The notes under the pieces: generated by a model
Told to the model about the DNA's origin: nothing
Seen by the model: only the letters and a program-made list of their open reading frames with translations
The model's database searches: none
Part shown: in pieces, positions 21,717 to 41,610 of the stretch
How the letters are laid out: each line of letters begins with the position of its first letter
Numbering within the stretch: the first letter of the stretch is position 1
Position numbers and translations under genes: made by a program
From: Thermoplasmatales archaeon SW_10_69_26
Lineage (GTDB): Archaea; Thermoplasmatota; SW-10-69-26
Length of the DNA stretch: 64,000 nt
Assembly: GCA_003009755.1 (NCBI GenBank)
Contig: PXUB01000001.1
Span: 85,854-149,853, forward strand
Reading direction: 5' to 3'

Positions 21717-21748
21717 GCCGCTCGCGGCGGGGGACCGGGCGAGCGCTG

Positions 21749-21862
21749 GGAACCTCGGGATGCAGAGGTCCGAGGCATCGATGCAGAACGAGGACCTCTG
21801 CCAACGACGGGAACACGAGGCCTGCAGATACCGTGGAAAGAGGCCGAGTGGTCCCGTCGGGA
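21749..21862. repeat. 102-bp palindromic repeat unit, copy 1
   Basis: First of three copies (others at 28286-28404 and 28613-28728). The unit has two hairpins, one with arms GCAGAGGTCC/GGACCTCTGC around a conserved loop with GATGCAGAACGAG, the second with GAGGCC/GGCC arms. It is bounded on the right by TGGTCCCGTCGGGA (21849-21862), identical to the tRNA-Glu 3' end; the left boundary is a degraded form of the same sequence 102 bp earlier. Confidence 0.85.
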
Positions 21863-21908
21863 CTTAGACCCTCTCGAGGAAATCGGGGCGAGCCAGATTC
21901 TGAGGCTC

Positions 21909-22124
21909 GTGGCTCGGAATGCAGGGTTCTCGCTAGCGCCCTCGCGGGCGCCTCCCTCTTCTTTTTCTCTTTCACTCCCCAGCCGCGAGGCTCGCCAGCT
22001 GCGCGACCAGCTGATCGAGGCGGCCGAGGACCCGCACCTGGAGGCCCTCGACGTCGAACCGGGGTGGCTGATCGCGTTCGCCGCCCACCTGACGGCTCAC
22101 CTGGAGGGGTGGATATCACGGTGA
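21909..22124 (+). pseudogene. gene fragment of unknown origin
   Basis: The 3' half of this frame (ARQLRDQLIEAAEDPHLEALDVEPG, then FAAHLTAHLEGWISR) has the composition of real acidic helical proteins here, while the first 25 residues look non-coding. It is probably the C-terminal remnant of a gene interrupted by the repeat at 21749-21862. The rest of the 21717-22141 gap is that repeat and AT-biased sequence with no gene. Confidence 0.35.
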
Positions 22125-22141
22125 CTCCTCCTTCCGCGGGG

Positions 22142-22516
22142 TCACTCGAGCATCGCCGCGATGCGGTCCACGAACCCCCGAGCGTCCTCGAGGACGCCGC
22201 GGGCCTCGTCCTTCGAGATCCCCGGCTCGGGCTCGTAGTCGCTGACCTGACGCTTCTGCATCGTCGTCGACAGCAACCGGCCCATCTCGCCGGGCAGCGG
22301 TCCGTCCTGCACGAACCGCTTGCCGAACTCGGTGATGACCCCGCGATGGGTGGAGGCGTCGACGCCTTCCTCGAGGAGAGCCGCCTCGGCGACGAAGAAC
22401 ATCGCGTAGTAGGCACGCGAGACGCAGGACTCGGGGTCCCCGTTGTCCAAGAGCAAACCGGCGCTGTCCAGGTAACGACCCGCGCGATCGAGCAGGGCCT
22501 CGACCTCGCCGGTCAT
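22142..22516 (-). CDS. HEPN-domain protein, toxin partner of the MNT protein
   Basis: A 124-residue HEPN protein. The core LDSAGLLLDNGDPESCVSRAYYAMFFVAEAAL is the family signature, followed by ASTHRGVITEFGKRFV. In MNT/HEPN modules the HEPN protein is an RNA-cutting toxin kept inactive by the nucleotidyltransferase partner. The classical R-x4-6-H active-site motif is not clearly recognisable, which is common in this branch. It is the second gene of the pair: its ATG overlaps the MNT stop by four bases (ATGA). Confidence 0.88.
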   Translation of the reverse strand: MTGEVEALLDRAGRYLDSAGLLLDNGDPESCVSRAYYAMFFVAEAALLEEGVDASTHRGVITEFGKRFVQDGPLPGEMGRLLSTTMQKRQVSDYEPEPGISKDEARGVLEDARGFVDRIAAMLE

Positions 22517-22833
22517 GCGGGCACGCCCTCGCGGCGGACGTTGCGAAGTAGGGGGCTGTTGCCTTGCTCGAAGTCCGGCTTGGCTACGGGGACGACGGAC
22601 AGGAGCACCTCGTGCTCCATGTCGATCTGCCAGGTGAGCTCGCCCATCCGGTCGATCTCCTCGAACCGGTCGACCGGGCCCTCGAGGACGACCATCAGGT
22701 CCACGTCCGAGGCGTCGGTCGCCTCGCCGCGGGCTTGCGAGCCGAAGAGGAGCACCTGGTGCAGGCGGTCGCCGTACAGCTCCTGGGCCCTCTGCTTGAA
22801 GGCCTCGACGGCCGATCGGGTCGCCTCGTCCAC
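22513..22833 (-). CDS. minimal nucleotidyltransferase (MNT) antitoxin
   Basis: A 106-residue MNT-type nucleotidyltransferase. VLLFGSQARGEATDASDVDLMVVL contains the GSxARGxx(x)SDxDL catalytic motif with the two metal-binding aspartates. In characterised systems MNT adds AMP to its HEPN partner and so neutralises it. The GTG at 22833 was chosen over the longer frame to 23058 because AACCTAAAGGACG (22857-22869) sits 24-36 bases upstream. It forms an operon with the HEPN gene by a 4-nt overlap. Confidence 0.9.
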   Translation of the reverse strand: MDEATRSAVEAFKQRAQELYGDRLHQVLLFGSQARGEATDASDVDLMVVLEGPVDRFEEIDRMGELTWQIDMEHEVLLSVVPVAKPDFEQGNSPLLRNVRREGVPA

Positions 22834-22856
22834 GGCAGGCCCTGGTAGGCGCTCTA

Positions 22857-22869
22857 CGTCCTTTAGGTT
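22857..22869 (-). promoter_or_regulatory. TATA-like box for the MNT/HEPN operon
   Basis: Minus-strand AACCTAAAGGACG is placed correctly for a leaderless GTG start at 22833. Confidence 0.55.
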
Positions 22870-22896
22870 CTCGCTTCCGGCCGCCCGCTGAGCACC

Positions 22897-22993
22897 GTCA
22901 ACCTCCAGTGAACACCATGTCAACCCGCCCGCGCCTCCTGGATCAGCCCCTTGCCGTTGACGAGGTTGACACCAACGTCGACCCGGCGTTGAC
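22897..22993. promoter_or_regulatory. cluster of GTTGAC motifs upstream of the winged-helix gene
   Basis: Within about 100 bp, GTCAAC or GTTGAC occurs five times (22897, 22919, 22956, 22965, 22988), and two more occur inside the downstream gene near 23310. The copy at 22988 is 27 bases before the GTG at 23015, where the promoter core should be. The cluster may be a set of operator sites for the encoded winged-helix protein. This is inferred from position and repetition only. Confidence 0.4.
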
Positions 22994-23014
22994 ATCGCCC
23001 CGGGAGGGAATCCT

Positions 23015-23820
23015 GTGAGCTCGGTTTCCGAGCTGACCGACGCCCAGCAGCGGGTCATCGAGCGCCTCTACGAGGGCAAGTACGCGGCCGCGATCGCCGA
23101 CGAGGTCAACGTCACCCGGCAGGCGGTCAGCAAGCACGTTCGCAAGCTCGAGGAGAAGGGGCTGATCACCGAGCACGCGGGCGAGACCGCCTTCTACCGC
23201 CGCTCGCTCGGACAGGGCACCTCGTTCAAGATCTACGGCCTCACCGACGCCGGCCTCCAGGCCCTCCGCGAGGCCCAGGGCCTGGGGCCAGGGGAGACGC
23301 CGCGGACGCCGTCAACGGGGTTGACGGAGCCTCCACCGGGGCAGTATGAGGACGTCAACGAGCCAGCCGTCCACAACGCGCCAGCCGAGCGTGGGCCGCG
23401 GGTCGAGGTGCACAACTATCGAAGTCAAGATCCCGATCGAGGACGACCAAGCCAAGCTCTGGCTACCCAACGAAGCCGAGCTCAACAACTGGACCCGCCG
23501 CTGGGACGAGAACGTCCACGGCGTCTTCCTCGAAGCCACCACCCGACACCTGCTGCGCGCCGGCGCCGAGGCCCGCTCGGTCGAGATCGCCGAGGGGCTG
23601 GTGCTCCGGAAGCTCGTCAAAGCGATCGAGCTGCTCGAGGACGCCTACGGGCTCGAGTTGGGCGCGCCCGAGTTCCGCTGCACCTACGAGCCCGGCAAGG
23701 GCAAGGTCGGTGTCACCGGCCACCCGCTGGCCGAAGGCCGCGGCCACGACGAAGGGGGGCTGGCGACGATCGACGACACGCCCGAGCCCGACACGATCCA
23801 CGCGACCGACGACCCGGCGG
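23015..23820 (+). pseudogene. frameshifted winged-helix DNA-binding protein gene
   Basis: The first 90 codons encode a winged helix-turn-helix (LTDAQQRVIERLYEGKYAAAIADEVNVTRQAVSKHVRKLEEKGLI type), followed by a linker and VEVHNY. The frame then shifts near 23410-23420, after which IEVKIPIEDDQAKLWLPNEAELNNW, FLEATTRHLLRAGAEAR and LVKAIELLEDAYGLELG continue in the +1 frame. Together they look like one protein of about 260 residues broken by a single-base change. The 3' end seems to stop where an unrelated beta-helix fragment on the other strand begins (about 23820). It lies in the decaying 21.8-28.3 kb region. Confidence 0.7.
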
Positions 23821-24065
23821 ACGTCGACCACGTCGTGGCAGTCAACATCGTCGGGCCCGTCCGCGCACCCCCACCAGTTGTGCCGCGCGTCGACGGTCGT
23901 GTCGGTGTTCTCGACCTCGAGCCCAATCCCGCCGGTGTCCTCGAAGTTCGTCTGCCGCACGGTCACGTTCTGGGTCAGCTCGACGTGCATGCCGGCGTCG
24001 GTGTAGTTGGTCACGTCGTTGTGCTGCCAGGTGGGGTCGTTGCGCTTGTAGCGTCCAAGCCGATG
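23820..24065 (-). pseudogene. fragment of a right-handed beta-helix protein gene
   Basis: On the minus strand about 80 codons read as beta-helix rungs (MHVELTQNVTVRQTNFEDTGG, GLEVENTDTTVDA) ending in RHNWWGCADGP, the same cap motif as the intact protein at 20235-21716. It lacks a start, signal peptide and most rungs. The frame downstream (HDVVDVRR...) is the reverse of the winged-helix gene, so this is a truncated copy abutting it. Confidence 0.7.
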
Positions 24066-24182
24066 TCGGCGCTCAGGCCGACGGCAATATCCCTAAGCCG
24101 GTCTGTATCCCTGGGGGTCACGCCGAGCTCGGGTTCACCTGGACGGCTGGGTGACGGGGAGGTCTATCGCCTCCGCTCGCCG

Positions 24183-24743
24183 TCAGAGCCGGCTTCTCCC
24201 AAGAAGCGCCCCAACGAAGGCGACGATAAGGAGGAGAGACCCCGGTGCAGGCGATGCTTTCTCCCCCTCTGGGAACTCGCCACCGTCACCGATCGAACCT
24301 TTGTCGTTCTCTTCGTATGGGGGCGTACCCTCGCTGCGGTTGTACTGGGGGACAGTAAGGCTCCCCTCTTCGCCTCGATCCCGATGGTCTCCCTCGTCAC
24401 ACCAGAACACGTATTCCCCTGGCTGCTCGAGGTGAACCGTCATGGCTGCCTCCTCGCCCGGCGGGACGGCATCCCCATCCCCGCTCACGCAGTTGATTGT
24501 ACCGTTGATCTCCATGCAGAGGTCGTGACCGACGGAGCCCTGGTCGTTGTCTAGGAGGACCGTCACGTTCCCCTTACCCACCTTCTCGCCAGGAGGGTTG
24601 AAGCAGTAGGTGTCCCCATCCGGGCAGCCCTCCTCGCGAACCTCGAAGGCCTGTGTCTCCTCCGCCAGAAGTGACGGGGACGCGAGCGACGCCATCAGAA
24701 GGGCGGAGAGGATCACCCGCGTCGTGTCGCCAGCCATGAGCAA
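24183..24743 (-). CDS. exported cupredoxin-like protein with C-terminal anchor
   Basis: A 186-residue exported protein: signal peptide (RVILSALLMASLASPSLLA), a cupredoxin-like beta-barrel, a disordered linker and a C-terminal hydrophobic segment with basic end (APGSLLLIVAFVGALLGRSRL) that resembles archaeal surface-anchoring tails. Candidate type 1 copper ligands are His in VGHDLC, Cys in YVFWCDEG and His in GDHRDR; the usual axial Met is not seen after the histidine. It could carry electrons outside the cell or be a copper-free relative. A CGTCTTTTCC stretch upstream may be the promoter. Confidence 0.72.
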   Translation of the reverse strand: MLMAGDTTRVILSALLMASLASPSLLAEETQAFEVREEGCPDGDTYCFNPPGEKVGKGNVTVLLDNDQGSVGHDLCMEINGTINCVSGDGDAVPPGEEAAMTVHLEQPGEYVFWCDEGDHRDRGEEGSLTVPQYNRSEGTPPYEENDKGSIGDGGEFPEGEKASPAPGSLLLIVAFVGALLGRSRL

Positions 24744-24888
24744 TGCTACCCGATGACGACGGAAAAGACGTGGGGAAGGATACGGCCTCTACCGACCAGA
24801 TTTGAATGTCCTCGAAGTTTCTCTACAATCGATTCTGGTATTCTGTACAAGGAAGGTCAAGGGTCCAGGCGCAATTTTTTCCCTCCTT

Positions 24889-26328
24889 ATGGAAAGGAAC
24901 AATCGAGCAGAGACCGTCCGAGGAACCGTAGGCCTGGCGTTTGTGATCCTGCTTGCAGGGGTCGGCCCCTCGGCGATCGCCACCGGGGCTGTCGACCAGA
25001 TCGATGAACGGTGCCCAGAGACCATCGGAGAAAGCGGTCCGGACCCAGTATCACGCTGCTCGGCCGAGGACAAGGTGATCTCCGACCGATGCATGCATAT
25101 CGCCATGGAGGGGGCACAGCTTGACGCAGCCGTTGACTGTGGCGGGTTCCCGCCGGGAGAAAGCGACCCCTGCGTCAGGGTAGAGGAGGGCCCGCCACCG
25201 AGCGTGGCCGTGAACACGGACCTCGGGGCCAACGGGACGGACGCCGCCAACGTCACCGACAACAGTTCAGTCCAAGCGGGGTCTGGAGGAGCCGGCGGAG
25301 ATGTTCTCCTGGATCTCGCGGATCCCCACGTCATCCTCATCACCGACACAGCCCAAGTGGCGACGGGGTCAGGCGGCGCCGGTGGCGATGTCAATGTGAC
25401 TCGCGAGAACCGTACCACGGATACGATCAACGGAACGGCAGGACCCGGTGGCGACGGAGGGAAATTGGGGATTCTCGCCGAGGCTAACATCAACGGGAAT
25501 CTCTCAGTCGGCGATGGGGGCGACGGAGGCTCGGCCTACGTGGAACACGTCGATGGTCCCTCCGTCAGTCACGGCGGAGACGGCGGTCGACCGGGTCTCC
25601 TAGGTCTCCCGACGGCCTACGACGCCGAGAGCCTCCACGAAGCTGGACAGCTGGAGGGAGCCAACTCTGGCGACGGCGGCGGAGCCTCCTCGACCTCCCT
25701 TTGTGCTCTCGAAACGAATGGTAGTCCTTACTGTGATGGCTCGGGCGATACGGATACCAGCACGGACAACGAGGATGGAAGAGACGGGGCGGACGCCAGT
25801 GGCCCCGGTAATGCCGGCGGCGACGGCGCAGCCGGCGCCGACGCCTACGCCGAGGGTGGTGACGGTGGCCCTAGATGCGTGCTCGTAGATCCCCCAGACC
25901 CCTACGAATGCGTTGCCATCACCGGTGGCAACGGCGGCAATGCCATCGCAGTTGCCGGGGAAGGAGGCCTCGGTGGAAACGGCGGCGACGGTGTGCACAA
26001 CTCCACCGAGAAAGCGATTCATGGCGGGGACGGTGGAGCAGGCGGTACGGGAGGGACGGCCGAGGCTTACGCCGGAAGCGCCGGATGCGCGACGGTCGGT
26101 GACCGTTGCGGACAGCCGGGCCATGCGAAGGCCCGGAGCGACGGTGGGGACGGAGGCATCCCCGGCGGCTCGGGGTGGACCGAAAACCTCTCCCAGACAA
26201 TCGAAGATAAATGCTCCTCAAACAGCCACGACCTCTGCTGGGAGCCCACACGTCCAAAGATGCCTGTGGACACGTCGGCATCGCTGCGAAGGGGGAAATC
26301 CAGGGACTATGATTGCCGAGAGCGATGA
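24889..26328 (+). CDS. secreted glycine-rich repeat protein
   Basis: A 479-residue exported protein. ATG 24889 is chosen because it begins directly with a signal peptide (TVRGTVGLAFVILLAGVGPSAIA), whereas the longer frame adds an implausible lead. The mature protein has many GGDGG, GGAGG and GNGG runs separated by short variable strands and cysteine pairs (CVRVEEG, CALETNG, CVLVDPPDPYEC). This resembles glycine-rich PGRS-like or Gly-rich beta-roll surface proteins that form extended triple-helical or beta structures. There is no anchor at the C-terminus. GC content is lower than in core genes, which suggests transfer. Confidence 0.72.
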   Translation: MERNNRAETVRGTVGLAFVILLAGVGPSAIATGAVDQIDERCPETIGESGPDPVSRCSAEDKVISDRCMHIAMEGAQLDAAVDCGGFPPGESDPCVRVEEGPPPSVAVNTDLGANGTDAANVTDNSSVQAGSGGAGGDVLLDLADPHVILITDTAQVATGSGGAGGDVNVTRENRTTDTINGTAGPGGDGGKLGILAEANINGNLSVGDGGDGGSAYVEHVDGPSVSHGGDGGRPGLLGLPTAYDAESLHEAGQLEGANSGDGGGASSTSLCALETNGSPYCDGSGDTDTSTDNEDGRDGADASGPGNAGGDGAAGADAYAEGGDGGPRCVLVDPPDPYECVAITGGNGGNAIAVAGEGGLGGNGGDGVHNSTEKAIHGGDGGAGGTGGTAEAYAGSAGCATVGDRCGQPGHAKARSDGGDGGIPGGSGWTENLSQTIEDKCSSNSHDLCWEPTRPKMPVDTSASLRRGKSRDYDCRER

Positions 26329-26443
26329 TCCGGACAATGAACAGACGTATCCACGACCGGGGGACGATGGGAGCACTCCATCGTACGATACGGGTTGTGA
26401 CCACGACAGCCAACATAGCCATATCTGAAGGAGTGCGACAGCC

Positions 26444-27136
26444 ATGAAACGGAACATCCCGAGAACTGCCATCGTCGGGCTAGGTTCCATTTTGATGCTG
26501 ACCTTCGCGGCCATACCATCTCTCGCGTCGGACGCTAATCCGCCGGACGTGGAGATCGAAGACCGCGTGACCTGGTTCCCTAATGCCCATCACCTTGGCT
26601 TCCAAGCCCACGCCGAGGCGTGCGACGAGCGTTCGACTGTACGTCTATCTTTGACAATCAAGGAGGTTGGGTCGGCGTCCGAAACCGGGAACTCCCCCTG
26701 TTTGGAGGTTTCCGAGACGTTCACCCTCCCCAGCCCGGGAGATCACAAGGCCAAGGCAGAAGCCCAGGATGATCACGGGAACGAGGCCCGAAATGAAGGA
26801 AAAGTGACCTCGAGGATTGTCCCCTTCGATACGGGGTCTGTGCCCGGTTACCCCCCGCTCGAGGAAATCCGAGAAACGGAGCTCGGTCCGCGTGTCACCA
26901 TCGAGACGCTGAACGACGCCGGGGGCACAGTGAAGCGCTACGAGGTCTCTTCGCAGGGGGCCGTCCTGATGAGCACCATGGCCGATGCCGTTCCCGAGGA
27001 CGGAGACTTCACGACTCGCGCCGTCCTTGACCGTCCTGTTGGATGGGCCGACGTCCACGTGGACGGTGACGTTACGTGGTCCGGTTTGATTTACCAGTCG
27101 TCGGAGGAATGGTGGCATTTCCGCGCTCTCAAGTAA
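26444..27136 (+). CDS. secreted protein of unknown function
   Basis: A 230-residue exported protein with a signal peptide (RTAIVGLGSILMLTFAAIPSLAS). The mature domain is beta-rich with a cysteine pair (EACDERSTVRL, NSPCLEVSE) and charged linkers. GAAGGAGT upstream could be a ribosome-binding site, so it may follow the glycine-rich gene in one transcript. Composition matches the lower-GC neighbours. No family is recognised. Confidence 0.68.
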   Translation: MKRNIPRTAIVGLGSILMLTFAAIPSLASDANPPDVEIEDRVTWFPNAHHLGFQAHAEACDERSTVRLSLTIKEVGSASETGNSPCLEVSETFTLPSPGDHKAKAEAQDDHGNEARNEGKVTSRIVPFDTGSVPGYPPLEEIRETELGPRVTIETLNDAGGTVKRYEVSSQGAVLMSTMADAVPEDGDFTTRAVLDRPVGWADVHVDGDVTWSGLIYQSSEEWWHFRALK

Positions 27137-27660
27137 TCGTCTCGTGGTGACCGAGGCAGGGTCGACGGCGAAGCGGAGCAGGCTGCATCCGGCTTGAGCC
27201 CGGCGGCCATCTGCATCGACAGCAATGGCCCCGGCGTTCGCCGCTGGCCACCTCGCCGACGTAGCGCTCGACCGAGATCCCTCTCGTGATACGTCTCCGG
27301 GTAGCCCGGGATCCAGCCGTCGGTGACGAGCGCCTCCAGCCCCAACCGTGACGAGATCCCGCCTCCCACGGGGCGATCATCGTCTTCGACGAACCGACGA
27401 GCTCGCTGTCGGGGACCGATCGGGGTGGGCGTGCAGGTGGTAGGCCCGCCAGGCCGTCCGCGAGGCGTCGGCGAACACCGTCTCGCTGAGCGCCACGATG
27501 CCCTCCACGTCCCTGCGGACGGCGGTCCCGCCCCGTGGATGGACCATCGCGCCGGGCAATCCTGCGCGAGCGGGAGCGCCTTCCGCCGTGTGGCATCCAC
27601 GCCAGACGTTAAGACCATCTCTCCACAACGTTAGAGCCTCCGCGGGCTGACCAGCGATTA
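27137..27660 (-). pseudogene. decayed gene, unidentified
   Basis: There is no intact frame. On the minus strand, protein-like stretches alternate between frames: EGIVALSETVFADASRTAWRAYHLHAHPD in one, GISSRLGLEALVTDGWIPGYPETYHERD in another, and LLSMQMAAGLKPDAACSASP. These look like one gene with two or more frameshifts. I cannot assign a family. Confidence 0.45.
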
Positions 27661-27686
27661 CCCCGACGTGACCACCGGCGGTAGAG

Positions 27687-27809
27687 CTAGGGTTTTTCCT
27701 CGCGGCCACGCACCCACCGATAGAGGATCCACGCGGAGACTCCCAACAGCAGGGCCACGACGAGAGCGATGATCAGTGAGGCGATCTCCACCTGGCGGAG
27801 CCCGAACAT
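27687..27809 (-). CDS. 40-residue single-helix membrane protein
   Basis: A short gene below the cut-off of the ORF track. The protein begins MFGLRQVEI, has one membrane helix (IASLIIALVVALLLGVSAWI) and ends with a basic cytoplasmic tail (RWVRGREEKP). GTTCTAAAAC lies about 20 bases upstream of the ATG on the minus strand, a good TATA-like element. The length and layout are like small membrane regulators or subunits; no family can be named. Confidence 0.6.
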   Translation of the reverse strand: MFGLRQVEIASLIIALVVALLLGVSAWILYRWVRGREEKP

Positions 27810-27854
27810 GGTCAGATGTTTTAGAACTGCTTGTTGTATGTATTATTCTAATGG

Positions 27855-28100
27855 GTGCGGGACCAGGCATTCGCCTGGCTGCAGGCCAGATCCGTCGGCG
27901 ACCTGCTAACAACTCCGGAGACTTTTCTGTTTGAGGATGTCAAAGGGAGATGGGCTTACCCGCACATCCTCGACGAGGGCCGGGACCTAGAGTGCCATTA
28001 CGTGATCACGGACGAGCCCACCGAAGGCGGCGTCACGTGGAACGACCAACCCAGCGGCGACGACCTGAACCTGCAGGACACGACGGCCACGAGAACGTGA
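27855..28100 (+). pseudogene. fragment resembling a DNRLRE-type surface domain
   Basis: An 81-codon frame with TPETFLFEDVKGRWAYPHI and, near the end, EGGVTWNDQPSGDD. The (E/G)GVTWNxQP motif is typical of DNRLRE-like surface domains. It has no signal peptide and stops where an integrase fragment begins in another frame, so it is most likely a truncated piece left at an insertion junction. Confidence 0.4.
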
Positions 28101-28103
28101 ACA

Positions 28104-28193
28104 CCACCAAGAAAAACTACGAGAACGAAGCCCGGTACCCCCAGAACCTGTATGGAGACCGCTGGCTGTTGCGAGCGCTCGAGGACTCGCTGG
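28104..28193 (+). pseudogene. C-terminal remnant of a tyrosine recombinase
   Basis: The frame reads TTKKNYENEARYPQNLYGDRWLLRALED, matching the end of the integrase at 35.9-37.1 kb (VRNYEQSVELHEKLYGDNWITRAFQ), including the NYE tyrosine segment and LYGD-W. Everything upstream is lost. About 95 bp downstream lies TGGTCCCGTCGGGA (28287-28300), the tRNA-Glu 3'-end sequence, the same integrase-then-att order as in the younger element. It marks the right end of an older integrated element. Confidence 0.75.
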
Positions 28194-28242
28194 CGGTCTC
28201 GAGGCTCGGACGGACCCTCGCTGGCGCTTCGGCTCCGTCGAG

Positions 28243-28286
28243 CTTCTCGACGGCTGCGCCGCCGTGGGGGATCAGCCGTCGAGAAG
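28243..28286. repeat. perfect 14-bp inverted repeat next to a tRNA-Glu 3'-end copy
   Basis: CTTCTCGACGGCTG and CAGCCGTCGAGAAG flank a 16-base loop and end exactly where the TGGTCCCGTCGGGA copy begins. It could be a transcription terminator of the old integrase or a recombination structure. Confidence 0.85.
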
Positions 28287-28404
28287 TGGTCCCGTCGGGA
28301 CGCAGAGATCCGAGGCATCGATGCAGAACGAGGACCTCTGCCGACGACGGGAGCACGAGGCCTGCAGATACCGTGGAAAGAGGCCGAGTGGTCCCCTCGG
28401 GATT
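28286..28404. repeat. 102-bp palindromic repeat unit, copy 2
   Basis: TGGTCCCGTCGGGA at 28287 and TGGTCCCCTCGGGA at 28389 are exactly 102 bp apart and enclose the same two-hairpin unit as copies 1 and 3. The left boundary and interior are themselves near-palindromic (GTCCCGTCG...CGACGGGA). Confidence 0.88.
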
Positions 28405-28530
28405 CTCGTACGAACCTCGCTTCGCTCGGTTCGGACGGCTCGCAAGCCCTTCCCGCTTGCTCGTAACCTGTGGTTCAAATCCCTCGGTCCCACTTCCTCT
28501 GGATGGTGGGCGAGAAGCCGCCCGTCGGGA

Positions 28531-28566
28531 TCTCAAGACGTGGCGGAGACCGGGCACGTCTTGAGA
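28531..28566. repeat. perfect 12-bp inverted repeat between repeat copies 2 and 3
   Basis: TCTCAAGACGTG and CACGTCTTGAGA enclose a 12-base loop; flanking CCCGTC and GACGGG extend the palindrome imperfectly. It lies between the two 102-bp units in a stretch (28405-28612) with no gene, only a T-arm-like GGTTCAAATCC near 28475. Confidence 0.85.
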
Positions 28567-28612
28567 GACGACGGGACCACGAGCGAACGTGGCCACAGGA
28601 GAAGGTGAGCGA

Positions 28613-28728
28613 GTGGTCCCGTCGGGATGCAGAGGGCCGAGACGACGATGCAGAACGAGGACCTCTGCAAACGACGGAGACCCGAGGCCTGGAGATACCG
28701 GAGAAAGAGGCCGAGTGGTCCCGTCGGG
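28613..28728. repeat. 102-bp palindromic repeat unit, copy 3 (left edge of the integrated element)
   Basis: TGGTCCCGTCGGGAT at 28614 and TGGTCCCGTCGGG at 28716, again 102 bp apart. The first shares 15 bases with the 3' end of tRNA-Glu at 37082-37096. Either one could be the left attachment site of the 8.4-kb element. Confidence 0.88.
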
Positions 28729-28873
28729 GACTATCCTCCATACCGGGAGGGGCTGGAGCCAAAACCGCCCCCGGTTTTGACGGTTTCCGGCTTGGACCCT
28801 GATACGTGGACGGCGAACCCGTCCGCGTCTCCCTCTTTCTCCATTTCAGACCCCCCACCTTCTCCGACCCCGA

Positions 28874-29245
28874 CGACGAGCCGAGCGTGCCGCAGCGCCC
28901 TCCGAGGGGCGACCGGCGATCAGGTCGGGCGGCCCATCATGGTCCCGCCCGAGCGACAGCGAGGGCGGGGCCTTGATGAGCGCCGGCCGATGCTCCGCCA
29001 GCCCCGAGGGGAAGCGAAGGCACGCGAGGCAGGAGGAGCGGGGAGCGGCCCCGACGGCGAGCCGAGACGCCGTAGCGACCCTCCGAGGCTCGCCCGCCAA
29101 CCGTCAACCTCACCCGCCAACTTCCCCCACAAGCAGACTCGGGAACGGGCCGTCGAAGGCGGGTGCGGAGAAACCTGGAAACCAGCCACGCACTCTTGTC
29201 TAGTAGACGGAAGCGCACGCACGGGCCGCCCCTATGGGGCGGCCC
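28874..29245. other. non-coding segment upstream of rep, candidate replication origin
   Basis: There is no convincing gene from 28729 to 29268. It holds a direct repeat of about 45 bp (GAGCCGAGCGTGCCGCAGCG-like at 28874-28918 and 29052-29097) and, just before rep, a perfect palindrome GGGCCGCCCC-TAT-GGGGCGGCCC (29223-29245). Repeats plus a hairpin directly upstream of an HUH rep gene are what a double-strand origin or rep operator would look like. Function is inferred. Confidence 0.45.
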
Positions 29246-29268
29246 GCTCGGTGTATCCTGCCCCTACG

Positions 29269-30252
29269 GTGGACTACGATGCAGCCCCACCCTCCACAGA
29301 CGAGGCCCAGCATCCGCCCGCCGTCTTCGCCACCCTTCCCGGCCAAGCCGACGAATGCGGCGAGAGCGAGTGCGGCAACGTCATCGGAGCCGAAGCCTGC
29401 TCCCATGCCGAGCACAACCCTGAGGACCACGACCTTCGGCTATTCTATCAGACCTGCGAAGGCCGCACCTGTCCCCAGGGATTCGAGGACTGGATTAACG
29501 ACCGCGCCGACAAAGCCCTCCACCGGCTCGTTGACGGAAAGAAGGCCTACGCTGAGGAAGGCAAGAACCTCGGCCCGGTCAAGCACGTAATCTTCTCCCC
29601 ACCCCCGGAGGAGACCGACGCCTATCGAAACGAGGATGGCTACGGCCAGCTCGTCCGCGATGCCTACGAGCACGCCCGCGAGGCCGGTATGGATGGGGGC
29701 GTGGCTATCCCGCACCTCTGGCGGCTCTCAGACGACCTCAAAGCCTGCCTGCGAGACGAAGGCTATGGAATCGGTGAGGAGAACGGCGGCCTCTGGCAAG
29801 GCGTCCACGACGACGCACTCGGCCTCGGCCATTGGCGAACCTACGTCACCTTCAGCCCCCACGTTCACCTCCTCGGTACCGGCTACCTGGAAAACGCCCG
29901 AGAGTTCAACGACCGAACGGGCTGGGTCTACCACAACAAGGGAAAGCGTCCCTCGCCGGGCTCGGTCCATTCCACGGCCGCCTACATCCTCAGCCATGCC
30001 GCCCTTGTGGACGGCAGCCGCGCCCTCCGCTGGTGGGGTGTCTTCTCCTACAACAAGCTCGCCAAGGTCGAAGAACTCGTCCGCCGAGAGCCGAAGACAT
30101 GCGAATGCGGCGAGCCGATCTATGAGTACCCGACCACCAAGGACGGTACCCGCGTCGGCTGGGAGCATCGGGGCTCTCCAGCAGAACGGGTGGAGAAGAC
30201 CGTTCTCTATCGGGTCGTGGGCAAGCCTCCGCCGGGGGGAGTGCAGTGTTAG
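29269..30252 (+). CDS. rolling-circle replication initiator (HUH endonuclease family)
   Basis: A 327-residue Rep-like protein. The HUH metal motif is in TYVTFSPHVHLLGTGYL (about residues 190-206), and STAAYILSHAAL (about residues 240-251) is a good candidate for the nicking tyrosine region. Cysteine pairs occur early (CGESECGN, CEGRTC) and late (CECGEP), suggesting zinc binding. The arrangement resembles Rep proteins of small haloarchaeal plasmids and viruses. GTG 29269 was chosen as it opens the coherent part of the frame, which otherwise extends upstream without protein-like sequence. The zinc-ribbon gene overlaps its stop. Confidence 0.8.
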   Translation: MDYDAAPPSTDEAQHPPAVFATLPGQADECGESECGNVIGAEACSHAEHNPEDHDLRLFYQTCEGRTCPQGFEDWINDRADKALHRLVDGKKAYAEEGKNLGPVKHVIFSPPPEETDAYRNEDGYGQLVRDAYEHAREAGMDGGVAIPHLWRLSDDLKACLRDEGYGIGEENGGLWQGVHDDALGLGHWRTYVTFSPHVHLLGTGYLENAREFNDRTGWVYHNKGKRPSPGSVHSTAAYILSHAALVDGSRALRWWGVFSYNKLAKVEELVRREPKTCECGEPIYEYPTTKDGTRVGWEHRGSPAERVEKTVLYRVVGKPPPGGVQC

Positions 30253-30362
30253 AGGTGGAGTGCGAGCGATGTGGCCATACGTGGATGGAACACGGAGTGG
30301 CCCAATGGGAATGTCCGCGATGCGGGAGCCTTTACGGTCGGTGGCCCGCAAACCGCGACTAG
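30246..30362 (+). CDS. 38-residue zinc-ribbon protein downstream of rep
   Basis: Too short for the ORF track. A GTG-started frame overlapping the rep stop by seven bases encodes VECERCGHTWMEHG and WECPRCGSLYGRW, a complete CxxC-x(n)-CxxC zinc ribbon of the kind often found beside rep in archaeal plasmids and viruses. It may bind DNA or assist Rep. The two intact CxxCG pairs argue that it is real. Confidence 0.75.
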   Translation: MLEVECERCGHTWMEHGVAQWECPRCGSLYGRWPANRD

Positions 30363-30439
30363 CCGCCCAACACCCGTTCGATAAGTAATCGTCCCGTCCG
30401 AGGATACCGCCTTCTCTCATCGGGAACGAAGATGAAGCG

Positions 30440-31552
30440 ATGGACGGCGTTCCGCGACCGGAGTCCCGGCTTGTTTCGCCTCCGACGGAGGGGAAACTAC
30501 AATTTAGCTGGGCTGCTTTAGACCCGGACGCGGAGACTGAGGGAGCGGCTGTGGAAGATGGTTTCGAATATCCGGGCTATCTGCTGTTCAACGAGATTGT
30601 ACATGTCCAGGAAATCGGCTTCGATGGCCCGCAGACGATAGGAGAGGAGCTTTCGACTTTCGGAGACGGGACCCCCACCAATCCATCGAAGGGGTTTCGG
30701 CAGCTTGATCTGAGTGAGGAGGTCGACGTGCGGGTATTCGAGACTGAGAGCTTCGCCCCTGTCGTCGAAGATATGCAATCCTTCGAGTATATAGCAGAAG
30801 ATTACGGTACCCAAATGGAGTTCGTGACAGGCGAGGGGGACCGCCAACAGGGACGCCCCAGAAGCTTGGACCGAGCCCATATCCATTGGCATTGGCCCGA
30901 CTACTTCTTCGTCCAAGGGTCACAATCTGTTGCCGAAGCTGCAGCAGAGGAGATAGTTTCAGAGCTGGACTTGGACAGCGCAGATGTTCAGCGTTTCACC
31001 TTTGACAACGATTTCTTCTTATGGATGTACAAGAAGAATCACGACGGAGACCCCCTTTCTGAATCACTGGATCTGCTCAAGTGGACTGACGCGGAAGCGA
31101 CGGGCGATCTTCCCTACCTCGGGAGTTCGACAGAAGTCCAGGAGTCAGAGGACGTTGGGCGTTCTATACCCATCCTCGTCGCGGTCCTACGGAATATGGA
31201 CCTAGCCTCGCTGGAGGGAATCTTCGAGGTAGGCTCGTACGCGATGACAGCTAGCATCGGAAGCCAAGGCAAAGTCCACGTTAAATCCGAGCAGACTGTG
31301 CAGAAAGCGTCCAATATCGCTCGGGTCTTTCTGTCAAATCTTTTCCTCCACGAACTTACCAACCTCTACGAGAACTGGAAAACTCTAGATCCTGAGGAGA
31401 AATACCCTCATCCCTCCTTCTTCTCTAGCCTCTGGGATAATGCCTCTGAACAAGGCGCCAACCTTGACATGGACTTCGACAGAGTCGTCGAGGAATACGC
31501 TGCGAAGCGTGGAGAGAGCGCAGAAGACTATGACTTCGATTTCGGTAACTAG
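30440..31552 (+). CDS. hypothetical protein of the integrated element
   Basis: A 370-residue acidic soluble protein, no signal peptide. The first half is beta-rich with HIHWHWPDYFFVQG; the second half is helical (SIPILVAVLRNMDLASLEGIFEVG, ASNIARVFLSNLFLHELTNLYENW). Codon usage is less GC-rich than in the chromosome, as for its neighbours. It is the first of a run of closely spaced plus-strand genes leading to the methyltransferase. No family is recognised; a role in defence or plasmid maintenance is possible from context only. Confidence 0.68.
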   Translation: MDGVPRPESRLVSPPTEGKLQFSWAALDPDAETEGAAVEDGFEYPGYLLFNEIVHVQEIGFDGPQTIGEELSTFGDGTPTNPSKGFRQLDLSEEVDVRVFETESFAPVVEDMQSFEYIAEDYGTQMEFVTGEGDRQQGRPRSLDRAHIHWHWPDYFFVQGSQSVAEAAAEEIVSELDLDSADVQRFTFDNDFFLWMYKKNHDGDPLSESLDLLKWTDAEATGDLPYLGSSTEVQESEDVGRSIPILVAVLRNMDLASLEGIFEVGSYAMTASIGSQGKVHVKSEQTVQKASNIARVFLSNLFLHELTNLYENWKTLDPEEKYPHPSFFSSLWDNASEQGANLDMDFDRVVEEYAAKRGESAEDYDFDFGN

Positions 31553-31563
31553 GGGTGTGAGAT

Positions 31564-32190
31564 GTGCTGAAAGCCTTGAGAAAAGTGGAAGGCGCCTCCG
31601 GCACCCACCCCAGAAGCCAAAACACAGAAAGCCTGCGGCTAGAGCTCCGCGACGAATGGCGCCTGAATCAAGCGGCCCTTGATGACTATCCATTTCTTGA
31701 TCAGTTAGTGCTGGAGGGACGGTATGAGTATTCAAAAGATCCGACCTGGGGATCACCGGAGCACGTCGATGGTTCCTTCCAACTCCGGACGGCCTCTGGC
31801 CTCCTTCTGATAGAGATCAGCGCAGATCGCCCATCCCCGACGGAGCTCGCGAAGGAATTCGATAAGGCTATCGATTCGGGCTTGCGTGTGAGCAGGGACT
31901 TCGTACCCTCTCGCGGGAAAGTGTGGTCTTTCGTTGATCAGGCGGATAGCGTTCTGAGTCTCCGGGCTCGAGACGAGACAGGACAGGTACGGAATCTTGC
32001 GGAAGTACATGACGCACAAAACCCCAGAGAATGGACCGTAGAACACGCGAGCTTGAAGTTCGGTTATGGTGGCGGATTCTTCCTCGATTTCGAGCGAGAC
32101 TCAATCTCCATATACGGAGTCGATGAGGGGGATGAGGAGCCAGCGATAGAAACTCTGGAAGTTGCCTTTTTGACAGGGATTTGGGACTAG
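31564..32190 (+). CDS. hypothetical protein of the integrated element
   Basis: A 208-residue soluble protein of alternating strands and helices (LDQLVLEGRYEYSKDP, FQLRTASGLLLIEISADRPSPTELAKEFDKAIDSG), with no recognised domain. It starts 11 bases after the previous gene and overlaps the next by ten bases, so the three are probably one operon. Composition is that of the element, not the host. Confidence 0.65.
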   Translation: MLKALRKVEGASGTHPRSQNTESLRLELRDEWRLNQAALDDYPFLDQLVLEGRYEYSKDPTWGSPEHVDGSFQLRTASGLLLIEISADRPSPTELAKEFDKAIDSGLRVSRDFVPSRGKVWSFVDQADSVLSLRARDETGQVRNLAEVHDAQNPREWTVEHASLKFGYGGGFFLDFERDSISIYGVDEGDEEPAIETLEVAFLTGIWD

Positions 32191-32777
32191 GGGGTCCTGG
32201 GGTGTCCACAGAGAGAATCAAAATATTTTGGAACAGAGCCCGGGAGTGGAGATGGTTTGGCTTCTTCACTTATGCGTCCACATTCCCTTGGATCGGCAGC
32301 TCATTCTTCCAGTCCTTTTCAACCGAGTGGTTTCTAATTGTCGGAGCAGCCCTTCTCACTCATGTTTTCCCTCTAGTCTGGGTGGGACTGACGCAGAGGC
32401 CGTTTTATCTAAAGGTCGATTGGGTCCCCTTAGACGATGAGGGCGTAGCTTGGCGGAGGAAGTCGTCAGGGATCGTAGCGATGGAAAATGGATCTGGCGC
32501 CATCCAGGTCTTCTTTGAGGTAATTGAAGGTGCGGAGGATATCGAGGTCTCTGTGGACGCTGATACGCCTTACTATGCGAGCCCTAACCAGCCTCCTGCA
32601 CCCCTTCGCTGGAGAGATGGCACGCTCTTGTTGGAAGATGGAGACTTGGAGAATAGGGAGTTCTACGTCAAGATAGAGCTCGTCCAGGATAGTGCTCTGG
32701 CTGGCGGAATGGACCATGAAGTCTATCTCCAGGATGAGCGGTCAGGGAAGGAGCTGTTGAGGGTACCCATCAATTAG
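32181..32777 (+). CDS. membrane-anchored hypothetical protein of the integrated element
   Basis: A 198-residue protein with two membrane helices near the N-terminus (FFTYASTFPWIGSSFFQSF, FLIVGAALLTHVFPLVWVGL), then a 120-residue beta-sandwich-like domain. TTG 32181 or GTG 32202 could be the start; the GTG form (VSTERIKIFWNRAREW) gives the more natural N-terminus. A membrane protein beside restriction genes might sense or secrete, but no function can be assigned. Confidence 0.62.
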   Translation: MGLGGPGVSTERIKIFWNRAREWRWFGFFTYASTFPWIGSSFFQSFSTEWFLIVGAALLTHVFPLVWVGLTQRPFYLKVDWVPLDDEGVAWRRKSSGIVAMENGSGAIQVFFEVIEGAEDIEVSVDADTPYYASPNQPPAPLRWRDGTLLLEDGDLENREFYVKIELVQDSALAGGMDHEVYLQDERSGKELLRVPIN

Positions 32778-32908
32778 GCTTCCGGAGGGCCAACCGGGGA
32801 GTCTTCCGGTCTCTCCGGCAACGATGAGGTCCTTCTTCACGGTGAAGGGAGTATCCTCTTAGGCAGGGAACTGGTTGCTCTACTCACTCCGACTGAGCGA
32901 GGGGATGG

Positions 32909-34306
32909 ATGATGGCGCTCCAAGAACCGATTCCCGGGCCAGATAGCGGAAAGCGGAACAAGCTCCTAGACCGGGACCGGGAGATACACGATTGGTATCG
33001 GTTCGTATTGGGGTATCCGCCCCACCTTGTCCGCCTCTACCTCGATAGGTTGGAAGCTGAACCCGGTGAAGACAGGGTACTTGATCCATTCTCGGGTACG
33101 GCCACAACACCCGTCGAAGCCCGGAAGAACGGCTTTTCGACCATCGGTGTTGACGCAAATCCGATAACTAGCTTGGCCACCCGCGTCAAGCTTCGATGGG
33201 GGTTGGATACGGACGACCTCATAGAACAGCTTGCCTCGATCATAGATGACGCCGCTGGCCGTCTCCTTGCTCACGATCTCGACCCGCTTGTAGACGGAGG
33301 CTTCCAAACTCGTCTTGAGGACAAGGCGTTTGAAGGAGACATACCCGATCTCGGCGCCCTAACCTCCGGCGCGGCCCCTTCTGAGCCAGTCAACGTTGAT
33401 GTTATCCTCTCGGAGAGCGCCAAGAAACTCATTCCGAAAGGGTTCATCAGCGAGAAGCCCCTCAAACGAGTTCTCGCACTCCGGCTGGCAATAGAGGAGA
33501 ATACCGAGGTCATCGAACGAGAGGAGTTCTTCTTCCTAGCCCTATCGAACACAGTCGTTTCCACGGCAGGTAACCTCGGCTTCGGGCCAGAAGTATATCG
33601 AAAGAGCCCGAAAGAGGATGCTGGAGTGTTGTCGGATTTCTTCGGCGTATCGGCCCAAATGATCCACGATCTAACCCGAGTCCAGAATCAAGGGGATCTG
33701 CCGTCCGCCTGGACTCGTTCCGGGGACGCTCGGACAATGGATTGTTTAGAGGGTCTCCCACCCAGCGATCTGATTATCACTTCACCGCCTTATCCGAACG
33801 AGAAGGACTACACGCGGAGTACTCGCCTGGAAACCGTCTTGCTCGGGCTCGTGGAGGAGCAGTCGGATGTTCAAGACATCAAGAGGTCACTGCTCGTCAG
33901 CAACTCCCGGAATTGCTACGTTGATGTAGATGATGGGAAGCATATCGAGGACATAGACGAGATTACCTCCCTCGCGGACAGGATTGAAGAAAAGCGGATT
34001 GAACTTGGCAAGGATTCAGGGTTCGAGAAAAAGTACCACGAGATAGTTAGGCATTATTTCGGCGGTATGTACCTGCATTTCGAGTCCTTGAAGGACCACC
34101 TTAACCCCGGTGCGAAGCTCGCGTATGTCGTCGGAGATCAACAGTCCTATTTCCGCATCAATATCCCAACGGCGGACCTTCTGGAGAAAGTTGGTAAGAA
34201 GGCGGGATACCAGCCTCTCGATACAGAGCTATGGCGCGAGAGGTTTGCTACGGAAACCGAAAAGACGATTGATGAAAACGTGCTCCTCCTGGAGTACCCA
34301 GGATAG
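32909..34306 (+). CDS. site-specific DNA methyltransferase
   Basis: A 465-residue SAM-dependent DNA methyltransferase of the amino-methylating class. VLDPFSGTATTPVEARKNGFSTIGVDANP (about residues 60-88) is the SAM-binding motif I-II, and LIITSPPYPNEKDYTRSTRLE (about residue 290) is the catalytic SPPY motif IV, so the product is N6-methyladenine or N4-methylcytosine. The long stretch between the two would hold the target-recognition region. The endonuclease gene starts five bases downstream, forming a restriction-modification pair. Either of two adjacent ATGs (32909, 32912) may be used. Confidence 0.88.
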   Translation: MMALQEPIPGPDSGKRNKLLDRDREIHDWYRFVLGYPPHLVRLYLDRLEAEPGEDRVLDPFSGTATTPVEARKNGFSTIGVDANPITSLATRVKLRWGLDTDDLIEQLASIIDDAAGRLLAHDLDPLVDGGFQTRLEDKAFEGDIPDLGALTSGAAPSEPVNVDVILSESAKKLIPKGFISEKPLKRVLALRLAIEENTEVIEREEFFFLALSNTVVSTAGNLGFGPEVYRKSPKEDAGVLSDFFGVSAQMIHDLTRVQNQGDLPSAWTRSGDARTMDCLEGLPPSDLIITSPPYPNEKDYTRSTRLETVLLGLVEEQSDVQDIKRSLLVSNSRNCYVDVDDGKHIEDIDEITSLADRIEEKRIELGKDSGFEKKYHEIVRHYFGGMYLHFESLKDHLNPGAKLAYVVGDQQSYFRINIPTADLLEKVGKKAGYQPLDTELWRERFATETEKTIDENVLLLEYPG

Positions 34307-34311
34307 TCCAG

Positions 34312-35124
34312 ATGTCTGAGGATGAAGCGACCGTCGAAATAGCCGGGTCAGAGATTCGCCTGACTCAGTTCTCAGACTACGAGCAAGTTCTCCTCGCTGT
34401 CTTTGCGGAGCACTACGAGGAAGGCGATGAGGAGATTGAGTTCGAGAAGGATGAGTTCGCCGACGCCGCAGATGATCTGGGTCTGAGAATAAGGAACATC
34501 CCGGACGTGGTCTACGCTTTCCGATCCCGTAGGCCTCTGCCAGACCCAATCACGACCATTGGAGATTGGATAATCCAGCCGGCAGGCAAGGGGTCATACA
34601 AATTCCAATTGCTACAGAGCGCCCCTCAGTTCGATTTGAACTTTGAGGCGTATCAGCCGATTGAAATCTATAACTCGGTTCCGGAGGTAGTTCAAAAATT
34701 CCTTCGGGACGATGAGCAGTCTCTACTCACTACCATCCTATACAACAGAGTCATCGATATTTTCACAGGGCTAACCTGCTTCCATATCCAGAACCACTAT
34801 CGGGCCAGCGTCCCAGGCACCGGCCAAGTCGAGCTCGACTCTTTTTACGTTGGCGTGGACGACAAGGGAGAACTTTACGCGATCCCTATCGAGGCGAAAG
34901 GTGCAGCGGAATCCGAGAAAATCGGGCGGGTGCAAGTAGCACACATGTCGGAACTCGCACAACAAGATTTCCCTAACTTAGACCGCCGGATTCTCGCCAT
35001 CAAAGAATTGGAAGATGGGACGATCTGTGCCGTCGAGTTCTCAGAAGGCGATTCGCCGGACGATTACAAAGTGAGACAAGTCCGGCGATTCGATCTAATA
35101 CGAGAAGACCGCACTCGTCCGTAG
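34312..35124 (+). CDS. putative restriction endonuclease (PD-(D/E)xK fold)
   Basis: A 270-residue protein directly after the methyltransferase. VELDSFYVGVDDKGELYAIPIEAKG (about residues 177-201) reads as the PD-(D/E)xK core, with Asp in ELDSFY and E-A-K on the next strand. The N-terminal half is helical and may bind DNA. Paired with the 32909 gene, this would be a type II-like system protecting the element. Recognition sequence unknown. It ends a few bases from a convergent gene. Confidence 0.78.
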   Translation: MSEDEATVEIAGSEIRLTQFSDYEQVLLAVFAEHYEEGDEEIEFEKDEFADAADDLGLRIRNIPDVVYAFRSRRPLPDPITTIGDWIIQPAGKGSYKFQLLQSAPQFDLNFEAYQPIEIYNSVPEVVQKFLRDDEQSLLTTILYNRVIDIFTGLTCFHIQNHYRASVPGTGQVELDSFYVGVDDKGELYAIPIEAKGAAESEKIGRVQVAHMSELAQQDFPNLDRRILAIKELEDGTICAVEFSEGDSPDDYKVRQVRRFDLIREDRTRP

Positions 35125-35128
35125 AAGG

Positions 35129-35782
35129 CTAGTCCGCCTTGTCCGGTCTGGTCCTTTTCTTTTCCTCCTCATCCAGGAGGTTGGGAGGATGATGACCTCG
35201 CTGGAGAGGGTAGGGCCAGGGATCGGGCGGAGTCCAGACATTCGCGCAGGCAGGGCACGCCCAATCGAGCCCAACCCGCCAATCAGCAATCTTCAACGCA
35301 AGGTCGTGGTGCTCCTCTGCCTCTCCTTCTTCGACCGGCTTCCTGGCTCGCGGGCTCAGGTACCAGTCCGGGATTTCCCTCTCAGGAATCCGCTTTGGTA
35401 GAGGATAAGGGTCAATCAGGTACCAAGTCCCGCACTCGGTACATCTCACCCGTTGTTGAGGCTGGACGCACTCAGCGTTTTCGCACCGCCCGGACCCTTC
35501 CTGGATCGAGTCGGCGCAAGCGACACAGTATCTCGCCTGACTGAGAGAGACATAGCCCCCAGCCCCAGGGGAGTGAATAACACGATATTCTTTCTTCAGT
35601 TCCCTCAGAGCACGGTTTTGCGTTCCGGACGGCTCTCCGCTGAACAGCTCTCGCTTGGAAGCGGGGCCATCCTCTAATTCCGTGAGGACTGCCTCTTTCT
35701 CCTCCTCTTGTCGACTCTTTGCCACCTCAGACTCCCCTCCTTGGACCCGCTCGCCCTTCTTCTTGGACCCATTCGGGCCCAT
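35129..35782 (-). CDS. winged-helix protein with zinc ribbons
   Basis: A 217-residue protein. Residues about 25-80 form a winged helix-turn-helix (EAVLTELEDGPASKRELFSGEPSGTQNRALRELKKE). Then come cysteine pairs CVACADS, CENAEC, CTECGTW and, near the end, CPACANVW, enough for two zinc ribbons. It is probably a transcriptional or copy-number regulator of the element. It runs opposite to the other element genes and converges on the endonuclease. Confidence 0.7.
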   Translation of the reverse strand: MGPNGSKKKGERVQGGESEVAKSRQEEEKEAVLTELEDGPASKRELFSGEPSGTQNRALRELKKEYRVIHSPGAGGYVSLSQARYCVACADSIQEGSGRCENAECVQPQQRVRCTECGTWYLIDPYPLPKRIPEREIPDWYLSPRARKPVEEGEAEEHHDLALKIADWRVGLDWACPACANVWTPPDPWPYPLQRGHHPPNLLDEEEKKRTRPDKAD

Positions 35783-35883
35783 TGACGGCTCCGCCTACTG
35801 ATGTGCTAGGGCGAGAATGAGAGCGTGCTTCGCTGGCCCGGGCGGTTCCCCTCCCGACCCGGGCCGGCGGGGCCACCTTAAGC

Positions 35884-37100
35884 ATGTCCGCTGAGAAGCC
35901 ATCCGCCCCAGGCTCGAAAGGGTTTCCCCCTGGATCACTCGCCGTCTCCCCCTCACGGAACGGGGAAAGCTCCAACTCACCGTCTCCTCCTGCGGCCCGT
36001 GGAGGTGAACGCCCAACACCACACACGGGCACACCGATGGCCGAACCCTGGCAAAACGAACACAACGCCAGGGTCCAAGCGATACTTGAGCGAAGCAACA
36101 CGGCAGAGTTCGATCCGACCCGAGAGGGCTGGAAGCAATGGATGAAGGAGGACCGTGGACTGGCGACGAAGACCCGGGCCAGCTACATTCGGAGCCTCGA
36201 CCGACTCGAACGGAACGGAGTCCTGACGGATGGCTCGGTCGGGGATTTCGTCTTGACCGCCCGGGAGCACTTCTTCCACCGCCGAGACGTGGAGGAGCGC
36301 CAGCGACCACTTTGAAGAACGACCTGAAGGCGATCAAGTGCTATGGCGATTATCTCGGCGTCCCCCGGAAACTTTGGCCGAAACAGCCCACGGTCAAGCA
36401 GAAGACCACCAAGCTACCCAGCCCCGAAGCCGTCCGCCACCTCCTGACCGACAACTACCGGGAGGACTCGACCCGCAACGAGCTCGTTCTGACTGTCATG
36501 CGGGTCATGTTCGGGCTAGGACTCAGACCCAAGGAGGCCTACGAACTCCGGCTCCAACACTTCTACCCGGAGGACCACCTCCTCCGAGTCCCGAGCGTAA
36601 AGAACTCGGCGGACGGAACAGAACCGCTCATCATCGAACCGGAATGGCTCTGCTGTGGAACCACCCGGCCCAGCCTGCTGAACTGGGTCGAGCACCACCG
36701 ACCGAAGCTCGACCCTACGACGGACGCCATGTTCCCGCACTTCGAAGGCGGGGACTGGCCCTCCGCCGAGGCCTTCTGGCAATACATCAAGCGCCCGGTG
36801 AAGAAGGTCTACCCGGGCTACTGGAACCGCCTCGGCCGCAAGTGGTCCGTCAACGCTCGCCTGATCGAGAGCAAGCAAGGCAGCCGGTACGACTGGAGGG
36901 GCGTGGCCAAGTTTCATCGACACACTACCGACACGTCAGTTCGGAACTACGAGCAGTCGGTGGAACTCCACGAGAAGCTGTACGGCGACAACTGGATCAC
37001 ACGCGCCTTCCAGAAGCTCCCGGGCGAGGAAACCGAGCCTCGCTGGGGGGTTTTGGACCCGTCCTCTTCTGGGGAGTACGATGGTCCCGTCGGGATTTGA
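35884..37100 (+). pseudogene. tyrosine recombinase (integrase), frameshifted
   Basis: Two frames join near 36290-36315. The first gives the N-terminal SAM-like DNA-binding domain (WKQWMKEDRGLATKTRASYIRSLDRLERNG...FFHRRDVEER). The second resumes with TTLKNDLKAIKCYGDYLG and the catalytic domain: the first Arg in GLGLRPKEAYELRL, a basic patch, KFHRHTTDTSVRNYEQ with the likely tyrosine in RNYE. A one-base change would fuse them. The real start may be ATG 36037. The last codons (DGPVGI) lie inside tRNA-Glu in antisense, as usual for integrases that overlap their attachment site. Confidence 0.82.
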
Positions 37101-37156
37101 ACCCGAGTGGTCGCCTCGAGAGGGCGAAATGATTGGCCGGACTACACCACGGGACC
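37082..37156 (-). tRNA. tRNA-Glu(CTC), integration target
   Basis: A complete cloverleaf on the minus strand: acceptor GGTCCCG/CGGGACC with discriminator A, GTGTAGTCCGGCCAATCAT D region typical of archaeal tRNA-Glu, anticodon stem TCGCC/GGCGA around CTCTCGA (anticodon CTC), T arm TCGGG TTCAAAT CCCGA. No intron. Its last 15 bases are the shared attachment sequence of the element to the left, and the gene stays whole after integration. Confidence 0.95.
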
Positions 37157-38130: not shown

Positions 38131-38175
38131 CTTCTCTTCCCCGACGAGCCATCTGGCTCTCCAGCCCCCACCCCT

Positions 38176-41579: not shown

Positions 41580-41600
41580 GGGCGTCGATGAACGCGGTCC

Positions 41601-41610
41601 CCTTATCAAC
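41601..41610 (-). promoter_or_regulatory. TATA-like box for purK
   Basis: Minus-strand GTTGATAAGG lies 22-31 bases upstream of the purK ATG. The remaining 41611-41876 sequence contains short direct repeats (CACGAAGG, GAGGCACGGAGGCACAGAGG type) but no gene. Confidence 0.5.

Follow-up and report, generated by a model that had tools for sequence, protein, structure and literature searches.

The 64,000-nucleotide stretch of the Thermoplasmatales archaeon SW_10_69_26 genome analysed here (contig PXUB01000001.1, positions 85,854 to 149,853; hereafter the window) carries a tRNA-Glu(CTC) gene that is followed, in order away from the tRNA, by a putative integrated element (element 1), an array of short repeat units (28287-28729), a second putative element (element 2), and a last repeat unit (21747-21862; Table 1). 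A preliminary description of this DNA had pointed to three copies of a unit with tRNA-Glu-like borders 102 bp apart, and the border positions confirm this: the sequence TGGTCCCGTCGGGA lies at 28287, 28389 (1 mismatch), 28614, 28716 (1 mismatch), and 21849, and a degenerate version, TGGGAACCTCGGGA, matches 10 of 14 positions at 21747, with the pairs 28287/28389, 28614/28716, and 21747/21849 each exactly 102 bp apart. The 14-mer is indeed the 3' end of tRNA-Glu(CTC), and the units are, as proposed, tiny and gene-less. Read on the tRNA strand, they consist of a tRNA-end copy, a spacer of about 31 nt, an inverted tRNA end, the hairpin GGCAGAGGTCC..GGATCTCTGC, and another tRNA-end copy, and the three copies agree with each other at 107, 100, and 99 of 116 positions. 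That they share the same internal hairpins holds for GCAGAGG..CCTCTGC, which is present in all three, but not for the outer stem, since the inverted tRNA end closing it is found in the units at 21747 and 28287 (GTGCTCCCGTCG at 28345-28356 in the latter) and is degenerate in 28614-28729; their fold z-scores range from -2.4 to -3.6. The border by itself occurs at chance frequency (22 sites with up to 3 mismatches in the window against 21.7 by chance), so the evidence consists of how the borders are spaced, the identity inside the units, and those copies that are exact or nearly so. A search of the genome and its relatives, which the preliminary description had suggested, returned no full-length copy in the 2.8-Mb genome beyond these three, all of them inside the window, and a single 24-nt match in 60 related genomes. 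Nor do the units match a known RNA family, the other possibility raised at that stage, as only tRNAs reach gathering scores with Rfam models.

Between 102-bp units 1 and 2 lie two further units (28521-28613 and 28388-28493) that follow the same plan with other hairpins, and the second of these shares its plan with, and resembles, the unit that immediately follows tRNA-Glu(TTC) on a different contig. The preliminary description had attributed movement of the units to the integrase of tRNA-Glu, but a special link of this kind is not supported, as the plan recurs at numerous further tRNAs, each time with the end of the tRNA concerned. Copies of each tRNA's own 5' or 3' end were searched within 600 bp, using the end read backwards as a control. 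Such copies flank 20 of the 41 tRNA genes of the host genome, while the reversed control gave 0 in every genome tested. The own 3' end was matched at a minimum of 14 of 16 positions in 16 of the 41 host tRNAs, compared with about 0.3% for the ends of other isotypes (binomial tail ~1e-29). Relatives, whose tRNA sets are partial and non-random samples, have own-end copies as well, both within the class (G002, 18/35; G003, 5/18; G004, 3/18; G006, 3/13) and, less often, in other classes of the phylum (G010, 7/34; G043, 3/14; and the single-contig assembly of G019, 2/33). None were detected at 20 tRNAs of G001, a fragmented assembly from the same family, or at the few tRNAs sampled from G005 (0/5). 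Units of one plan flank many tRNAs on their 3' and 5' sides, each with the sequence of its own tRNA. As a separate observation, the intron-containing tRNA-Tyr gene of the window (locus 1444-1770) has tandem 3' units with direct and inverted copies of its 3' end.

Each unit has a stem that is closed by an inverted copy of the tRNA end and encloses at least one hairpin. Downstream units of the host are typically arranged as tRNA end, spacer, inverted tRNA end, P2 (GAACCnnGGTTC), P3, GA, P4, GAA, and tRNA end, and upstream units, which are no more than about 14 nt away from the start of the tRNA, show the identical order on the opposite strand, with GA/GAGA and GAA seen at the hairpin feet. The commonest insert in the host is a covarying double-hairpin cassette of about 50 to 75 bp, P3-GA-P4-GAA. 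Across 11 units from eight tRNA families, including one unit from another class, 97.9% of cells are paired and 24 of 31 pairs show two-sided changes, which was reached by none of 500 shuffles and far exceeds all slid versions, though the absolute values are optimistic because the units were hand-segmented with shortened loops and picked for folding. In 50 of 60 3' copies, the inner boundary falls 14 to 20 nt from the gene end, i.e., in the region of the T-loop, a known crossover region for tyrosine recombinases. For 5' copies, it falls at 22 to 25 nt in 12 of 18 cases, at the end of the D-loop, which to our knowledge is not a usual site for these enzymes. Exceptions on the upstream side are cassettes in the anticodon loop of a tRNA-Val(TAC) copy, and a full pseudogene upstream of tRNA-Leu(TAA) carries cassettes in its variable and T-loops. 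In units of relative G002 (L106 to L127), the place of the double-hairpin cassette is taken by single, shorter hairpins in which the motif GACGAGC..GCGAGTC recurs, possibly holding tandem G-A mismatches.

A model of P3-GA-P4-GAA matched 57 sites in the genome at E ~1e-3 or better, 21 of them within 1 kb of a tRNA compared with 1.7 expected. Since 10 of the 11 training units come from the host, ten were removed from the tRNA-linked matches, which leaves 11 of 47 (tail ~1e-7). The other 36 matches lie elsewhere, several of them right after stop codons or near contig ends. Fifteen of the 21 tRNA-linked cassettes point outward from the nearest tRNA as scored by script, and two of the remaining six belong to a neighbouring tRNA-Ser array relative to which they, too, point outward. 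In 5' units, the cassette sits on the antisense strand, which argues for an origin at the level of DNA. Insertion or exchange of whole cassettes is best supported, in a comparison of sister units and not of strains, by two arrays: Units 1 and 2 of tRNA-Arg(TCG) have a nearly identical frame, including the spacer that is not derived from the tRNA, and differ in P3 and P4, while the outer unit of tRNA-Ser(TGA) contains three abutting cassettes compared with one in each of its two sisters. Across 7 further archaeal genomes, the three-hairpin model gave a single weak match. Two recurrent contexts were seen around cassettes: A module of TTGTTTTGCT..GCTCTCGCGCC, cassette, and GAATGAGCG occurs three times (L338, C32:99-173; L341, C34:163-242; L328, C41:38779-38869), followed by GGAAACCCCCTG in two copies and with two copies less than 300 bp from contig ends. 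Three alike intergenic cassettes (L334, L335, and L339) have common flanks, GGCGAACCCTCGCATC.., and two of these sites hold an additional cassette in back-to-back arrangement on the opposite strand.

We interpret these units, with a probability of roughly one half, as a lineage-wide class of tRNA-flanking palindromic repeats, that is, miniature cassettes residing in arrays of tRNA fragments. Own-tRNA specificity, a shared plan, and modular cassettes together argue both against the satellite of a single integrase and against random scars. The units look like miniature tRNA-associated repeats of a kind not described before, and full-text searches found no description of tRNA-flanking repeats, palindromes, double hairpins, or repetitive extragenic palindromic (REP) doublets forming hairpins (REPINs) in archaea. 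Each unit is a fragment of the adjoining tRNA gene, the 3' fragment downstream and the 5' fragment upstream, usually cut at a tRNA loop, and the long stem that surrounds the inserted hairpins is closed by this tRNA end in an inverted copy. Cassettes would insert as DNA into loops within copies of tRNA genes, an intact tRNA being retained each time, and arrays may subsequently expand by tandem duplication. The copies of tRNA ends could then serve as extra attachment sites for larger integrative elements, which would have scattered the three 102-bp units. Our leading guess for the mobiliser is a tyrosine recombinase that acts on tRNA loops and is encoded by the host or by an element. More tentatively, and in our estimate doubtful as it stands, the units may be mobile DNA without genes, of a class not yet described, which employs the tRNA gene itself as its terminal repeat, inserts at tRNA loops on either side, restores the intact tRNA, copies the local end in inverted orientation to close its fold, and builds arrays that larger elements exploit. 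The data point either to miniature mobile DNA of a new class, its ends derived from the target, or to an unrecognised function of tRNA leaders and trailers.

Several observations weigh against the reading as a class of tRNA-flanking cassettes. No mobilising enzyme was identified, with 0 matches for the Y1 transposase (PF01797) in G000-G006, which comprise the host and its class. Matches to the full three-hairpin model were limited to 4 of the 145 genomes from the phylum, which makes the cassette type narrow in spite of the wider spread of tRNA-end copies. The 102-bp units themselves carry a single branched hairpin and not the double-hairpin cassette, the comparison of cassette turnover is limited to tandem sister units, and the covariation set has the selection described above. 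In addition, part of the pattern could be imitated by template switching in which palindromes are made and repaired. A purely mutational account would combine tandem duplication of tRNA ends with template switching at stalled replication or transcription, which would create inverted copies and maintain perfect stems without selection or mobility. Tandem identical or near-identical units at tRNA-Phe of G002 and at host tRNA-Gly(TCC) fit such an origin, as do inverted copies that match the local tRNA end, but it explains neither the cassette consensus common to different tRNAs and other sites nor the differing hairpins within near-identical frames, and we consider it rather improbable.

Integration followed by decay could have produced the tRNA fragments as well, if larger elements inserted at tRNAs by a tyrosine recombinase and were lost by internal deletion, leaving attachment-site scars with hairpins as remains of the element ends. 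Partial tRNA copies are a usual product of integration in archaea (PMC9897764), which also gives the arrangement seen here, with 3' fragments on the downstream side and 5' fragments on the upstream side, and two elements do sit in such arrays. However, random deletion would not yield one covarying P1-P2-P3-GA-P4-GAA plan at many tRNAs, cassettes away from tRNAs are left unexplained, and element 1 ends without a cassette, neither model matching there, so that we view scars as an unlikely source of the units. A functional RNA would instead be co-transcribed with its tRNA and mimic the acceptor-T minihelix as a processing decoy or as a small RNA cut by RNase Z or RNase P. The structure is strongly conserved, 3' units end in their own T-stem and acceptor 3' strand closing a stem of about 12 bp, and 5' units start close enough to the tRNA (about 14 nt or less) that they may be part of its leader. 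Such a role appears very unlikely to us, given that 5' units contain the same cassette in antisense, that related genomes and tRNAs differ in whether units are present (0/20 in G001, a member of the same family), and that no Rfam family matches.

The tRNA genes of prokaryotes are a main landing site of integrating elements, and the simplest reading is that such elements attach at a tRNA or at copies of it and thereby scatter units that were already present. Because elements lie both between tRNA-Glu and the units and inside the array, the simplest history is insertion into an older array that scattered its units. Similarly, an element at tRNA-Gly(CCC) lies between tRNA-end copies with common flanks, and its genes, named by eye from their translations, are recombinase-like (in two frames) and methylase-like. 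Repeats of tRNA ends alone are insufficient for drawing element boundaries in these genomes. Neither the recombinase of element 1 nor an open reading frame (ORF) of this element matched viral contigs. The reading frame at 28627-30252 was considered as an HUH replication protein from a motif seen by eye, found no profile or structure support, and was not used. Adjoining minus-strand genes for HEPN and nucleotidyltransferase proteins (22142-23058), likely a toxin-antitoxin-type pair, lie inside the presumptive element 2. Further along the window, a purK-like protein (40425-41720) has up to 67% identity to Halobacteria compared with about 40% to most relatives of the class (62% in G001), which suggests gene transfer.

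Table 1. Positions of tRNA-associated units and putative integrated elements within the window
Feature	Position	Strand	Details
102-bp unit 1	28287..28402	-	both tRNA-Glu 3'-end borders (28389-28402, 28287-28300)
102-bp unit 2	28614..28729	-	both borders (28716-28729, 28614-28627)
102-bp unit 3	21747..21862	-	border exact at 21849, degenerate at 21747
tRNA-Glu(CTC)	37082..37156	-	source of border sequence
Further unit	28521..28613	-	inverted tRNA end at 28567-28582; hairpin CTCAAGACGTG, unrelated; copy of the tRNA end running down from 28532; fold z -6.5
Further unit	28388..28493	-	inverted tRNA 3' end 28472-28493; hairpins GCAAGC.., ACGAACC..; tRNA 3'-end copy 28388-28407
tRNA-Ser(TGA) 5' unit	37352..37590	-	three abutting cassettes 37374-37437, 37438-37498, 37499-37549
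tRNA-Ser(TGA) 5' unit	37591..37717	-	one cassette, 37613-37674
tRNA-Ser(TGA) 5' unit	37718..37844	-	one cassette, 37740-37802
tRNA-Ser(TGA) 3' fragment copies with cassette-like hairpins	37930..38131	+	tRNA 3'-end copy 38112-38131
Intron-containing tRNA-Tyr, two tandem 3' units	1444..1654	-	3'-end copies 1549-1569, 1444-1462; inverted copies 1603-1620, 1497-1514
Putative integrated element 1	28730..37081	.	DNA methylase 32909-34306; recombinase at tRNA end; boundaries predicted from tRNA-end repeats
Tyrosine recombinase	36138..37100	+	overlaps tRNA-Glu 3' end; PF00589 E 7e-4, under curated cut-off
Putative integrated element 2, inside array	21863..28286	.	recombinase remnant; tRNA-end copies at both ends
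Recombinase C-terminal remnant	28097..28183	+	38% over 29 aa to element 1 recombinase; beside array

Compared with known systems, the units differ from a satellite of the tRNA-Glu integrase in that they are not confined to tRNA-Glu and that other tRNAs carry their own ends. They recall integron attC arrays as arrayed folded sites with tyrosine recombinases nearby, but they are devoid of genes, no attC structure was recognised by eye, and the recombinase is not detectably related to IntI (E 0.84). With REPINs and other REP sequences mobilised by REP-associated tyrosine transposases (RAYTs), they share paired hairpins that are short, dispersed, and free of genes and whose feet have conserved bases; however, the units are bounded by the sequence of the local tRNA gene, and membership in this group is not supported since the host and its class have no Y1/RAYT-type transposase. 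Like the tRNA fragments left by integrative elements (PMC9897764), they are partial tRNA copies beside intact genes with breakpoints in tRNA loops, yet they measure only about 60 to 140 bp, have no genes, occur in tandem and on both sides of the tRNA, and contain an inverted tRNA end and hairpins. The double-hairpin elements and GC clusters of fungal mitochondria are likewise small and built of hairpins, and they fuse, shuffle, and turn over fast (PMC4478555), and their two adjacent GC-rich hairpins in many dispersed copies find a counterpart here in the 57 model matches. Our units differ in residing in archaeal chromosomes and in having ends copied from the neighbouring tRNA, and a target-site duplication is not established for them. 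By analogy, they would seem to work most like these mitochondrial double-hairpin elements, with the addition of an outer stem made from the neighbouring tRNA gene.
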